Source: Allonocardiopsis opalescens (GTDB lineage: Bacteria > Actinomycetota > Actinomycetes > Streptosporangiales > Streptosporangiaceae). Taken from it: DNA of 64,000 nucleotides. The position numbers and the translations under genes are program-made. Shown piece by piece: positions 1,386 through 12,411 of this stretch. Every line of letters starts with the position of its first letter. Positions within the stretch are counted from its first letter, which is position 1. The stretch spans positions 124,001 to 188,000 of the forward strand of contig NZ_PVZC01000003.1 in assembly GCF_003002095.1 (NCBI RefSeq), read 5' to 3'. A model generated the notes under the pieces. The model had not been told where the DNA came from and made no database searches. It saw nothing but the letters and a program-made list of their open reading frames with translations.

Positions 1386-1413
1386 AGGCGGTGCCGCGGG
1401 AGCGGCACCGCCT
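1386..1413. terminator. Bidirectional hairpin terminator
   Basis: A perfect 12-bp stem with a GGGA loop, AGGCGGTGCCGC paired with GCGGCACCGCCT, lies between two converging genes and touches the stop codon of the minus-strand gene. There is no T-run, as is usual in high-GC actinobacteria. Confidence 0.7.
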
Positions 1414-2078
1414 CACTGCGTTCCGGGGCCCTCCAGCAGGCCGTGCCGCCGCGCCAGCTCGGCGAGTTCGCCGACGCGGCCCGCCATGATGACGGCCGCG
1501 TGCTCGGTGACCAGCTCGATCGGCCAGTCCCACCAGGCGATCCGGCCCAGCAGCGACGCCTCCTCGCGGGTGAAGCGCTCCCGGATCACGCCGGCGGGGT
1601 TGCCGCCGACGATCGTGTACGGCGCGACGTCGCGGGTGACCACCGCGGCGGTCGCCACCACGGCGCCGTCGCCGATGGCCACCCCGGGCATGATGGTCGC
1701 GCCGCGCCCGATCCACACGTCGTTGCCGACGACGGTGTCGCCGGGCGAGGCGCGCAGCGCGGACCAGGTGTCGAGGGTGCGCTGCTGCCAGGCGCCGTCG
1801 AACATGGTGAACGGATAGGTGGACACCCCCGCCATCAGGTGGCTGCCGGCCGGCATCACGAAGCGCACGCCGGCGGCCAGCTGGCAGAAGCGGCCGAGGA
1901 CCAGCCGCTCGGGGCCGTAGTTGTACAGCACGTTGTCGGTCTCGAAGCGCTCGGCGGCGACCGGGTCGTCGTAGTAGGTGTACTCCCCCACCTCGATCAG
2001 CGGCGAGGTGACCAGCGGTTTCAGGAAGACCACGTTCGGCGCCCGGTCGAGCGGGCGGACGGCTGCGGGGTCGGGCAC
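1413..2078 (-). CDS. CatB/Vat-like xenobiotic O-acetyltransferase
   Basis: A 221-residue left-handed beta-helix acetyltransferase of the xenobiotic acetyltransferase (XAT) group, which includes Vat (streptogramin A) and CatB (chloramphenicol). Visible hallmarks are an N-terminal [27 protein letters not shown], the hexapeptide turns [18 protein letters not shown] and [18 protein letters not shown], and [14 protein letters not shown]. An active-site His precedes [10 protein letters not shown]. The start is a GTG five bases after the ABC-F stop codon, so the two are almost certainly co-transcribed. Vat- or CatB-like proteins of environmental actinobacteria often have unknown substrates. Pairing with a ribosome-protection ABC-F makes a streptogramin- or related drug-resistance role plausible, but this is inference. 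Confidence 0.85.
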
Positions 2079-2083
2079 GGTGT

Positions 2084-3790
2084 TCAGCTTCGGCTCCTCG
2101 GTTCCTCGGCGGTGGGCGGACGGAGTGCGGCCGGGCGGCCGGCCTCCAGGTGCAGGACGGCGCCGGTCCAGTCGCGGCGCAGCCAGCGGTCGTGGCTGGC
2201 CACCACGATCGCGCCGGGGGCGGTGCGCAGCGCCTCCTCCAGCTCCTCGGCCAGCGCGAGCGAGAGGTGGTTGGTCGGCTCGTCCAGCAGCAGCAGCTGC
2301 GGCGCGTCGGCCACCGCCACGGCGAGGGCGAGCCGGCGGCGCTGCCCGGCGCTGAGCAGGCCGACGGGCCGGTCCAGGTCGCGCGGGGCGATCAGGCCCA
2401 GCTCGCGCAGCGGCGGCCGCTCTGGCGCGCGCTCCCCCAGCGCCTCGGCGTAGACCTGCCCGGCGGTGCGCTCGGGGCGGTCGAAGCGGACGTCCTGCTC
2501 CAGGAGCCGGACCCGGATGCCGCGGCGGTGCGCCACGGTGCCGCGCGCCGGGGCGAGCCGGCCCGCGAGCAGCGCCAGCAGGGTGGACTTGCCCGCGCCG
2601 TTGGGGCCGGTGACCAGCAGCCGCCCCTGGGAGGGCACGTCGAGCCGGTCGAGGACCAGCCGTCCGGGCACCTCGGCGCCGCGCAGCCGCACGGCCGGGC
2701 CGTCGTCGCCGCCGGAGCCGCCGGTGAGCACGCCGGCGAAGCGCAGCGGCGGGCGGGGCTTGCGGACCTGTTCGCGGGTCAGCTCCTCCAGGCGCCGCCG
2801 GGCATTGCGGACCCGGCGGGAGACCTGCCGCTGCACCCGGCCGCCGGAGTAGTCGTAGGCCATCTTCGCCCTGTCGCGCATCGCCCGGCCGGGGGCGACC
2901 TGGCGGGCGGTGGTGCGCACGGACTCGCGCAGTTCGGCCAGCTCCTCCTGCTCGGCCGCCCAGCGCTCCTCCCAGCGGCGGCGCTCGGTGCGCTTGGCGC
3001 GCAGGTAGTCGGTGTAGGCGCCGCCGTACCAGGTGGGACCGTCGCGGGAGGGGTCCAGGTCGAGCAGGCCGGTGCAGACGGCGTCGAGGAATACGCGGTC
3101 GTGGGAGGCGAGCACCACCGCGCCGGGCAGCGCGGCGAGGTGGCCCTCCAGGAAGGCGATCGCGTCGTCGTCGAGGTGGTTGGTGGGTTCGTCCAGCAGC
3201 AGGGCGCGCGGCTGCCGGACGAGCAGCGCGGCCAGGGCGAGCCGGGAGCGCTCGCCGCCGGACAGCTCGCCGATCCGCCGCGAGCGCGCCACCCCGGCCA
3301 GGCCGAGGCCGTCCAGAACCAGGTCGGCGCGGTGGTCGGCCTCCCACAGCTGGTGTGCTTCGGCCCATTCGAGCAGTTCGGCGTAGTCGGCCATCGCCTG
3401 CGGCTCACCGGGCGCGCGCTCCAGGCGCTCGGCGCGGCGGGCCAGCTCGCGCTCTGCCGCGCGCAGCTCGGCCAGCGCCGCCTCCAGCACCCCGCCGACG
3501 GTGGTGTCGGGCGGGTGGGGCGGCTCCTGGTGCAGGAGGCCGGTGTCGGGCGGCCGGGCCAGGGTGCCGGAGTCGGGCTCCTCGATGCCGGCCAGCAGCC
3601 GGAGCAGGGTGGACTTGCCCGCGCCGTTCTCGCCGACCAGGCCGACGCGGTGCCGCGGCGGCGCGCTGAACGAGACGCCGTCCAGCACGGTCGCGCCGTC
3701 GTAGGACTTGGCCAGCTCGGAGGCGATGACGGCGCCGGTCGGCGAGAAGGGCAGCGGCCGGGAAGACGGCGAAGCGAAGGGAGATGACAT
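2084..3790 (-). CDS. ABC-F ribosomal protection protein (antibiotic resistance type)
   Basis: A 568-residue protein with two ATP-binding cassettes and no membrane domain, which is the ABC-F layout. Cassette 1 has Walker [10 protein letters not shown] (53-61), signature LSGGE (176-180) and [13 protein letters not shown] with catalytic Glu at 201. Cassette 2 has GPNGAGKST (395-403), LSAGQ and [11 protein letters not shown] with Glu at about 504. Between them (about 250-350) is a basic, helical inter-domain linker of the type that reaches the ribosomal P-site tRNA and peptidyl-transferase centre in antibiotic-resistance ABC-F proteins. Known relatives in actinobacteria (TlrC, LmrC, VarM groups) protect against macrolides, lincosamides or streptogramins. 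The downstream gene, five bases away, is a Vat/CatB-like acetyltransferase. The leader looks attenuator-like. Confidence 0.9.
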
Positions 3791-3817
3791 CGGCGACCAT
3801 CCGCGAGGAGGAGTCGG

Positions 3818-3888
3818 AGAGCCCGCCGGGCACTGCCTCCACAGGAGGCGCCTCAGGGCGCGGGCCTGGCTCGATGTCAGCTCTTCAT
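3818..3888 (-). promoter_or_regulatory. Leader with 3-codon ORF and competing hairpins before ABC-F gene
   Basis: On the minus strand an ATG-AAG-AGC-TGA mini-ORF (3888 to 3877) is followed by overlapping inverted repeats. These are GAGCC/GGCTC with GCCCGC/GCGGGC as long-range arms, a GCGCC-CTGA-GGCGC hairpin and a GCCTCC-TGT-GGAGGC hairpin at 3835-3849. They can only form in alternative combinations. This is the layout expected for ribosome-mediated attenuation, a known mode of control for ABC-F resistance genes. No good Shine-Dalgarno precedes the mini-ORF, so the call is tentative. Confidence 0.4.
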
Positions 3889-3951
3889 GATGATCGAGAG
3901 GATAGCCGCAGGGGTGGGGGCGCCGTCAAACGCGTTTGCCCGCGCCGGGCC

Positions 3952-4275
3952 TCAGGAGCGGGTGAGCAGCTCGCGCAGCTCGGCCAGCTTGGCGCGGACC
4001 CGGGTCTGGCCGACCACGCCGCCGGCCATCCCGGACGGGCCGACCATCATGGTGACGTGCACGGCCTCGCCGTGGCGCTCCAGTCGGATCAGGTAGGGGT
4101 AGTGCAGCGCGAAGACCCCGAGGAAGGCCGCCTTGACGGCGCTGCCCTTCTCGGCGGTGCCCTGCACCGGGCTGTCCCAGCGGACCTGGAAGCCCTGGCC
4201 GGTGAGCACGCGGTCCAGCCGCTCCCTGGCCTGCTCCACCTGGCCGGCCAGGTGGAACCGCACCGTGTCGTCCAT
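3952..4275 (-). CDS. Conserved hypothetical protein (107 aa)
   Basis: I do not recognise a named family. The protein starts MDDTVRFHL and contains a mixed alpha/beta pattern, a QVRWDSPVQGT strand, a hydrophobic AAFLGVFALHYPYLIRLE segment that looks like core beta structure rather than a membrane helix, and an amphipathic C-terminal helix. The layout hints at a small cytosolic domain similar in size to SRPBCC or DUF-type proteins. The frame is open to 4314, but ATG 4275 has a GGGAGCG upstream and a sensible N-terminus. A 21-bp hairpin just upstream terminates the SDR gene, so this gene probably has its own promoter. Confidence 0.55.
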   Translation of the reverse strand: MDDTVRFHLAGQVEQARERLDRVLTGQGFQVRWDSPVQGTAEKGSAVKAAFLGVFALHYPYLIRLERHGEAVHVTMMVGPSGMAGGVVGQTRVRAKLAELRELLTRS

Positions 4276-10107: not shown

Positions 10108-12411
10108 TCAGTTGGCCATGTCGACGAAGCGGCTGTAGTGGCCCTGGAAGGCGACGGTGACGGTGGCGGTGGGGCCGTTGCGGTGCTTGGCGACGATGAG
10201 GTCGGCCTCACCGGCCCGCGGGGACTCCTTCTCGAAGACGTCCTCGCGGTAGAGCAGGATGACCATGTCGGCGTCCTGCTCGATGGAGCCGGACTCACGG
10301 AGGTCGCTGATCTGCGGTTTCTTGTCGGTGCGCTGCTCGGGGCCGCGGTTGAGCTGGGAGAGCGCGATGACCGGCACGTTCAGCTCCTTGGCCAGCAGCT
10401 TGAGGGCGCGCGACATCTCCGAGACCTCCTGCTGGCGGCTCTCCACCCGGCGCGGGGAGCTCATCAACTGGAGGTAGTCGACCACGACGAGTTTGAGGTC
10501 GTGCTGCTGCTTGAGGCGCCGGCACTTGGCCCGGATCTCCATCATCGACATGTTCGGGGAGTCGTCGATGAACAGGGGGGCCTCGGCGACCTCGCCCATG
10601 CGGCGGGCCAGCCGGGTCCAGTCGTCGTCGCTCATCATGCCCGAGCGCATGGTGTGCAGCGGCACCCGCGCCTCGGCCGACAGCAGCCGCATGGTGATCT
10701 CGTTGCGGCCCATCTCCAGGCTGAAGATGACGCTGGTCAGGCCGTTCTTGATCGAGGCGGCCCTGGCGAGGTCGAGGGCGAGGGTGGAGTTGTGGGTGGG
10801 CACCATCGAGCGGGTGGCGAGGTAGAGGTGCGAGGGGTGGTCGATCTGCACGCAGCGCACCGGCACGCTGGGCACCGGCTCGACCCGGATCACCGCGCGG
10901 GCGGCCGCGCCGGCCCGGAAGCCGCCGCCGCGCCGCTTGTGCTCCAGCCGCCGGGCCTCGGTGCCGAACACGGGGTCGGCCGGGGTGAAGGCGACGGGCT
11001 GCCCGGCGGGGCCGGGCTCGACCCGGTAGCCGAGGCCGGTGACGAGGTCGCGGCAGCCCTCGGCCAGCTCCCGGGGGGCGGCGGCGAAGGCGACCGCCCC
11101 CGAGGGGGTGACCGTGCCGGCGGCGTCCAGCAGTCCGGCGAGCAGCCGACGGCGCTGCTCGGCCGAGGCCCGCAGGTAGCGGTCGGGCAGCCCCGGCCGC
11201 TCGTAGACCCCGGCCGCGCGCAGCGCGGGGGCGGCCGGCCCGCCGCCGGGGGCGCGCAGCGCGAAGCGGCCGGGGGTGCCGGCCGGGGCGAGCCGGTAGC
11301 CGTCGGACTCGATCCGGACCGCGATCTCGGGGTCGTCGACGGCGAGGAGTTCGGAGCCGGGCCGCCCGGCGCCGAGCCAGACGCCGAGCACGTACGGGGG
11401 GACGGGCAACTCGGCCTCGGGGAGCTCCAGCGGGGCGGCGACGCGCACGGTGTGGCCGGTGCCGAGGCCGGGCGGCCGGGAGTCGTCGGCGATCTGGCGG
11501 GTGGTGCGCACGGCCGTGCCGGCCCGCAGGGTGTGGGTGAGCCACTGGTGCTCGGCGTCGGCGACCACGCTGGTGCCGTCGGCGAAGGTCATCCGGTAGC
11601 AGGGGCGGCCGGTGAGCACCTCGGTGGCGGCGACGACGGCGGTGGGGGTGCCGTCGGCGGCGAGCAGGTGGTCGCCCACCCGGACCTCGCCCATGGTGGT
11701 CCAGCCGTGCGGGGTGGGCAGCGGGGTGTCGAGCGCGAGCGCCTTCCCGACGGCGGGGCGGGCCGCGATGATGATCATCTGGCCGGGGTGCAGGCCGTTG
11801 GTGAGGGAGTCGAGGTCGGCGAAGCCGGTGGGGACGCCGGTCATGCCGCCGTCGCGGCTGGCGATGGCCTCGATCTCGTCCAGCGCCCCCGGCATGATGT
11901 CGTTGAGCTGGAGGTAGTCCTCACCGGTGCGCTTCTCGGCGACGGCGAAGACCTCGGCCTGGGCGCGGTCGACGATGTCGTCGATGTCGCCGTCGCCGGC
12001 GTAGCCGATCTGGGCGATGCGGGTGCCGACCTCGACCAGCCGCCGCAGCACGGCGCGCTCCTCGACGATCCTGGCGTAGTAGCCGGCGTTGGCGGCGGTG
12101 GGCACCGAGGAGATCAGGGTGTGCAGGTAGGGGGCGCCGCCGACCCTGGCCAGCTCGCCGCGCTTGGTCAGCTCGGCCGAGACGGTGACGGCGTCGGCCG
12201 GCTCGCCCCGGGAGTAGAGGTCGATGATGGTGTCGTAGATGACCTGGTGGGCGGGGCGGTAGAAGTCGACGGCCCGCAGCGCCTCGACCACCTCGGCGAT
12301 GGCGTCCTTGGAGAGCATCATGCCGCCGAGCACGCACTGCTCGGCCATGACGTCGTGCGGCGGAGTGCGCTCGAACTCGGAGTCCGGCGGCGGTGCTTCG
12401 GCGACGCTCAT
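10108..12411 (-). CDS. dnaB: Replicative DNA helicase DnaB with intein
   Basis: A 767-residue precursor of the hexameric replicative helicase that unwinds the fork 5' to 3'. The N-terminal primase-interacting domain is at about 1-160 and the RecA-like motor follows. The P-loop ARPAVGK-STLALD is split by a 318-residue intein between Lys223 and Ser542; removal leaves a normal 449-residue DnaB. After the intein come TSVIFSLEMG, LVVVDYLQLM (Walker B) and VPVIALSQLNRG, then a C-terminal PTATVTVAFQGHYSRF. The ATG has GGAGGACACG upstream. Because the insertion disrupts ATP binding, helicase activity must depend on protein splicing. The gene is divergent from a MATE exporter, and the gap is full of DnaA-box-like sequences. 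Confidence 0.97.
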   Translation of the reverse strand: MSVAEAPPPDSEFERTPPHDVMAEQCVLGGMMLSKDAIAEVVEALRAVDFYRPAHQVIYDTIIDLYSRGEPADAVTVSAELTKRGELARVGGAPYLHTLISSVPTAANAGYYARIVEERAVLRRLVEVGTRIAQIGYAGDGDIDDIVDRAQAEVFAVAEKRTGEDYLQLNDIMPGALDEIEAIASRDGGMTGVPTGFADLDSLTNGLHPGQMIIIAARPAVGKALALDTPLPTPHGWTTMGEVRVGDHLLAADGTPTAVVAATEVLTGRPCYRMTFADGTSVVADAEHQWLTHTLRAGTAVRTTRQIADDSRPPGLGTGHTVRVAAPLELPEAELPVPPYVLGVWLGAGRPGSELLAVDDPEIAVRIESDGYRLAPAGTPGRFALRAPGGGPAAPALRAAGVYERPGLPDRYLRASAEQRRRLLAGLLDAAGTVTPSGAVAFAAAPRELAEGCRDLVTGLGYRVEPGPAGQPVAFTPADPVFGTEARRLEHKRRGGGFRAGAAARAVIRVEPVPSVPVRCVQIDHPSHLYLATRSMVPTHNSTLALDLARAASIKNGLTSVIFSLEMGRNEITMRLLSAEARVPLHTMRSGMMSDDDWTRLARRMGEVAEAPLFIDDSPNMSMMEIRAKCRRLKQQHDLKLVVVDYLQLMSSPRRVESRQQEVSEMSRALKLLAKELNVPVIALSQLNRGPEQRTDKKPQISDLRESGSIEQDADMVILLYREDVFEKESPRAGEADLIVAKHRNGPTATVTVAFQGHYSRFVDMAN
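10789..11742 (-). other. Class 3 intein in DnaB, endonuclease probably dead
   Basis: The intein spans precursor residues 224-541 and starts with Ala, not Cys or Ser. It has the class 3 'WCT' triplet: Trp290 two residues after the block B His288 (AEHQW), Cys520 in block F (VRCVQID), and Thr539 before the terminal His540-Asn541 (PTHN). The +1 extein residue is Ser542. Two LAGLIDADG-type motifs are present but degenerate. LGVWLGAG (342-349) has Ala where Asp is expected, and LAGLLDAAG (424-432) has Ala431 at the catalytic Asp position. Splicing should therefore start from the block F Cys, while homing activity is probably lost. Class assignment rests on the published residue rules; inactivity is inference. 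Confidence 0.92.

Follow-up and report, generated by a model that had tools for sequence, protein, structure and literature searches.

The stretch of DNA analysed here (the window) comprises 64,000 nucleotides of the Allonocardiopsis opalescens genome (contig NZ_PVZC01000003.1, positions 124,001 to 188,000 of the forward strand). On its minus strand lies a gene for an ABC-F protein of the ribosome-protection type, probably co-transcribed with the gene for a Vat-like O-acetyltransferase (Table 1). The best NCBIfam model for the ABC-F protein was NF000171 (TlrC/CarA/OleB/SrmB; 457 bits, under the cut-off of 800), and the general ABC-F model NF000355 gave 323 bits, under its cut-off of 380. Pointers to the subfamily diverge (ARE4 or ARE5), the best NCBIfam model being a macrolide-producer model while the Vat-like partner points to streptogramin A. 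A Vat-like homologue adjoins the ABC-F gene in five relatives among the examined loci (L011, L012, L115, L124 and L125; related loci and leaders are cited by L number).

Table 1 Features of the ABC-F locus and its leader in the window.
Feature	Position	Strand	Basis
-35 element TTGACG	3924-3929	-	Sequence; spacer of 19 to the -10 element, inside the 16-19 range of actinomycete WblC-type promoters (PMC7157823)
-10 element TATCCT	3899-3904	-	Ends 10 nt before the uORF ATG; TANNNT box likewise placed in related leaders
uORF ATG-AAG-AGC-TGA, ATGAAGAGCTGA (Met-Lys-Ser-stop, MKS)	3877-3888	-	Sequence; mini-ORFs in the same place in 60 related leaders; full-length match to covariance model R3
Segment 1, anti-start strand TGACATCG, from the uORF stop codon on	3872-3879	-	Covarying pairing with segment 2
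P2 hairpin, 5' arm GCCCGC	3860-3865	-	Compensatory changes in relatives
Loop insertion specific to the window, holding two small hairpins that overlap	3835-3861	-	Sequence and folds; missing from aligned relatives
P2 hairpin, 3' arm GCGGGC	3821-3826	-	Compensatory changes in relatives
Segment 2 CGATGTCA, includes the ABC-F ATG (3790-3788)	3785-3792	-	Pairs with segment 1
ABC-F ribosome-protection-type protein, 568 aa	2084-3790	-	Two ABC domains (Pfam ABC_tran, two stretches)
Vat-like O-acetyltransferase	about 1413-2078	-	NCBIfam Vat family, E 2e-63, below cut-off; begins right past the ABC-F stop

Two further observations concern other genes of this genome. In the DnaB replicative helicase encoded at 10108-12411 of the window (minus strand), the ATP-binding site is apparently split by an intein-like insertion of about 300 aa, for which no match to a Pfam intein family was found at E<=1e-5. 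The A. opalescens genome also holds a second ABC-F gene (L027, G000:C8:172332-173972). The 8-codon uORF in its leader, MGFGIIYL-stop, lies about 279 nt ahead of the ABC-F match and about 6 nt past a TAGGAT box, and appears to be leaderless.

A first-pass annotation of the sequence had placed a three-codon Met-Lys-Ser-stop ORF ahead of the ABC-F gene, and this ORF was confirmed upstream of the ABC-F start at 3790. With 15 three-codon ATG ORFs in the window, the MKS ORF is by itself unremarkable. A search of both strands of the window for the arrangement of a -35 element, a -10 element and an ORF of two or three codons returned a single instance, the MKS leader. In S. coelicolor, WblC-activated promoters mostly start transcription 7-8 bp past the -10 box (PMC7157823); combined with the -10 spacing of the window promoter, these distances lead us to expect the mRNA 5' end within about 3 nt of the mini-ORF. 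The predicted promoter would place the transcript start at about 3888-3892, rather than downstream of 3877, the alternative that had been raised against a role for the mini-ORF.

Homologues were searched for in relatives, the family, the order (200 genomes) and the class, and occurred in two contexts. In the first (L014, L130-L141), two ABC-F genes stand in tandem, and the homologue comes second and lacks its own leader. In the second, a promoter-proximal mini-ORF precedes the ABC-F gene; 60 such leaders, from at least six families, were collected. Their mini-ORFs have three codons in 52 cases, two in 6 and five in 2, and end in TGA in 59 of the 60. Arg or Lys is the second residue in 45, and position 3 is highly variable (N, H, K, S, I, L, M, Y). 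Since the 60 leaders were chosen for bearing a mini-ORF, the fact that they have one does not count as independent evidence, unlike the pairing and model tests described below. In 48 of the 60 leaders the mini-ORF start is preceded, at 7-10 nt, by a TANNNT box, against 2.9% in shuffled upstream sequence, and from this spacing, together with that in the window (10 nt), the uORF is predicted to be probably leaderless. Most of the short leaders measure 75-118 nt from start to start. Two-codon uORFs (GTG-ATC-TGA, GTG-AAG-stop) stand where others have three codons in L176, L181, L187 and L193 and in L118 and L129; in the L176-L193 set an ATG-TGA is also present two bases upstream, in another frame.

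A covariance model, R3, was built from 19 leaders with the window excluded. Searched against the 6.97 Mb genome, its sole match at E<=1 was the window leader (39.6 bits, E 1.1e-4), and the match runs from the mini-ORF ATG to just beyond the ABC-F start. R3 also picks up several long-form leaders outside its training set. When the class was scanned with R1, a sister model that does include the window, one match each was obtained in 32 of 375 genomes, nearly all directly upstream of this ABC-F gene, so that a conserved leader in relatives, the absence of which had been proposed as an argument against regulation, is present. One model match near a helicase-like ORF (L230) was judged spurious. Searched against Rfam, the leader had no match at the gathering threshold or at E<=1.

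A protein-profile search of genome contigs yielded mostly distant ABC-F genes, with only L033 (Catellatospora) being useful. Several distant genes (L020, L025, L030, L031, L021, L022) have other apparently leaderless mini-ORFs encoding conserved hydrophobic peptides, namely MQYLFFL (in three genomes), MHLYFL, MRYFL and MGSL. It may be that actinomycete ABC-F genes generally have leaderless uORFs, and that the longer hydrophobic mini-ORFs of the distant genes are peptide-specific. At L142, a tiaA-like leader about 262 nt upstream of the match contains the uORF MAGDDDISG, close to the MVGDDDISG reported for tiaA; behind it, the first ABC-F gene seems to have been deleted and joined to the beginning of the second.

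Comparison of the short leaders revealed a covarying pairing between segment 1 and segment 2, which would lock the ABC-F start codon to the stop region of the uORF. In alignment A3 (11 leaders), 7 pairs of this helix are changed on both sides, compared with 2.2 in shuffles, and none of 500 shuffles reached 7; when the partner was slid along, at most 2 double-changed pairs were found and the signal was lost. Among short leaders, own helices scored 19.0 and swapped helices 13.5 (permutation p<=5e-5). The 8 bp helix of the window itself has a modest shuffle p of 0.015. The sequences of the two strands differ between relatives, reading GAGCACC/GGTGCTC in L016, GACACCACC/GGTGGTGTC in L157, GACTCCGA/TCGGAGTC in L170, GACACCTGA/TCAGGTGTC in L173 and GACACGTGAC/GTCACGTGTC in L193. 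A strong lock is absent in a few short-form relatives (L168, L172, L174, L179, L194). Inside the lock, the P2 hairpin is kept in relatives with compensatory changes.

The first-pass annotation had instead drawn attention to competing inverted repeats between the mini-ORF and the ABC-F gene. These repeats are present, as hairpins GCGCC-CTGA-GGCGC (3861-3848) and GCCTCC-TGT-GGAGGC (3849-3835); the two have two bases in common and hence compete only weakly. Both belong to an insertion missing from the aligned relatives, which rules them out as a conserved switch. Judged from the aligned sequences, the conserved element is the lock between uORF stop and ABC-F start, together with one central hairpin, a pairing that differs from the one proposed earlier. 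The range given at that time (3818-3888) covers the uORF but does not reach the 3' partner on which the pairing depends, the ABC-F start region at 3792-3785. For its composition the leader has an ordinary folding energy (z -1.36, with 21 of 200 shuffles equally good), which was dropped as evidence. Given this ordinary energy and the abundance of three-codon ORFs, the original observation was correct but weak without comparison, and it is conservation that lifts it above chance.

These comparisons also bear on whether the operon is controlled by its promoter alone, through WblC or another regulator, with a structured 5' leader in which the mini-ORF is incidental. Chance three-codon mini-ORFs are indeed common, and WblC-like AAAA stretches lie ahead of the -35 element in many relatives. 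WblC/WhiB7 promoters carry a GAAAWY box 3 nt upstream of a -35 element TKGMNN, with a spacer of 16-19 (PMC7157823); relatives such as L113 match this consensus, and the window promoter fits it in -35 element and spacer but has a poor box, CAAACG. The start and stop of the mini-ORF are kept while its third codon varies, it stands at a fixed distance from the -10 element, and its stop overlaps the covarying strand, all of which makes promoter-only control a highly improbable account.

A ribosome at the uORF start codon was modelled by masking nt 1-16 of the leader. In the window, the unpaired probability of the ABC-F start codon rose from 0.00 to 0.67 with this mask, and remained at 0.00 with control masks. 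Across 26 short-form leaders, the uORF mask exceeded control masks in its effect on the accessibility of the ribosome binding site (RBS; p=1e-7) and of the start codon (p=3e-4). Mean accessibility over the whole RBS of the window rose just from 0.20 to 0.26, and its Shine-Dalgarno sequence is weak. P2 persisted when the induced fold was predicted for the leader as far as the ABC-F start. In this model, the ABC-F start signal lies within a structure that could be broken by a ribosome on the uORF.

We consider it likely that the window leader is a translational attenuator of the resistance operon, worked by a leaderless tri-codon uORF. The mRNA is predicted to begin at the uORF ATG or 1-3 nt before it. 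In the absence of drug, TGACATCG, from the uORF stop, would pair with CGATGTCA around the GCCCGC/GCGGGC hairpin, as the covariation supports, and the closed ABC-F start codon would be repressed. An antibiotic targeting the 50S subunit would arrest a ribosome on the uORF, in the simplest case at the start codon, where the leading edge would cover the first 15-17 nt, including most of segment 1; the lock would then open and the ABC-F/Vat-like operon would be translated. The length of the uORF would be important, because, with three codons, a first-codon ribosome would cover the anti-start strand with its footprint, and the peptide sequence would be of little importance. Drug stalling at the start codons of ABC-F uORFs, including the 3-codon MLV, has been described for lincosamides, streptogramin A and pleuromutilins (PMC12421871), and tri-codon uORFs precede cplR and vmlR (PMC10201436). 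A start-codon stall would suit a short ORF that has no peptide code, and a streptogramin A signal would suit the Vat-like partner. The earlier proposal, in which stalling on the mini-ORF changes the RNA fold and so frees the gene for expression, is supported and fits the comparative data well, with different pairing partners.

In transcription attenuation of the lmrC/vmlR type, a stalled ribosome would instead keep a premature terminator from forming in the leader; this mode has often been published for ABC-F genes, Streptomyces lmrC among them (PMC8546547). A search for intrinsic terminators in 3700-4050 found no terminator-like site, which favours translational control; terminators without a U-tract may escape this search, actinomycete terminators may lack that tract, and the GC-rich P2 could terminate, so this mode keeps a small share of the probability. 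The covarying pairing takes in the start codon itself, which would be needless for a terminator, and P2 persists in the predicted induced fold. On balance, transcription attenuation appears unlikely at this locus, and translational attenuation through the lock is preferred.

Some close relatives have long-form leaders (L010-L013, L113-L129, L143-L153, L190) of about 150-290 nt with four ErmC-like repeat segments. An ErmC-type switch would alternate between pairings 1:2 and 3:4, with the Shine-Dalgarno sequence hidden, and 2:3, with it free; long-form leaders L010-L013 and L113-L129 do bear segments like CATCGAGACC, GGTCTCGATG, CATCGAGGCCCACC and GGAGGTGG in this order. Masking the uORF did not give the expected opening of the RBS in long forms, which stayed closed in the equilibrium model, so either co-transcriptional folding matters in them or they work in a different mode. 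The window leader belongs to the short form, and the behaviour of the long forms has no direct bearing on it. As it is short and has two strands only, with segments 3 and 4 missing, an ErmC-type switch is scarcely credible here. Most long-form leaders (L010, L013, L113, L116, L151 and others) have a WblC-box-like GAAAA stretch a few nt before TTGC, and their operons may be under dual control by WblC and an attenuator.

Beyond the window, we lean slightly towards a class-wide actinomycete attenuator in which a leaderless uORF of two or three codons would sense the drug without a peptide code, a first-codon ribosome breaking the stop-to-start lock. In some relatives two codons seem to suffice (GTG-ATC-TGA or GTG-AAG-TGA), near the smallest workable ORF. 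The geometry offers an answer to why ABC-F uORFs so often have exactly three codons, namely that the anti-start strand must lie under the first-codon ribosome. The covariance model enables such leaders to be found, and the ABC-F/Vat-like operon and its relatives are predicted to be drug-inducible intrinsic resistance loci.

Tri-codon ABC-F uORFs are already known from Firmicutes and S. coelicolor, and leaderless regulatory uORFs from mycobacteria; a leaderless tri-codon uORF with a stop-to-start lock was not found in the literature searched, which covered few subscription journals. The cplR, vmlR and vmlR2 leaders of Firmicutes (uORFs MRI, MIN and MK[LQ]; PMC10201436, PMC9226507) resemble the window leader in having a three-codon uORF before an ARE-ABCF gene, and cplR resembles our model further in its translational attenuation, which there accompanies transcriptional attenuation, the Shine-Dalgarno sequence being hidden. 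In cplR a terminator hairpin with a U-tract does the hiding, whereas no terminator was found in 3700-4050 of the window, where the uORF is apparently leaderless and the resistance gene has its start codon paired with the uORF stop region itself. The are5sc, tiaA and lmrC leaders of Streptomyces (PMC12421871, PMC8546547) differ in having lengths of about 190-230 nt, uORFs described with ribosome binding sites and a terminator/anti-terminator model. With ErmC-type attenuators the window leader would share the opening of a hidden start region by stalling on a leader ORF, but it lacks both the long arrest peptide and the four-segment switch, using two strands only. The leaderless cysteine-rich uORF attenuators of mycobacteria (PMC4633059; Canestrari 2020 as cited in PMC13236596) are short and leaderless, as is predicted for the window uORF, are likewise actinobacterial, and are proposed or shown to attenuate downstream genes; in them a peptide code serves to sense an amino acid, whereas the window type has two or three codons, a variable peptide and a resistance gene downstream. 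The leader described here would thus be a compact addition to the ABC-F attenuators: leaderless, two to three codons long, free of a peptide code and built on a direct stop-to-start lock.
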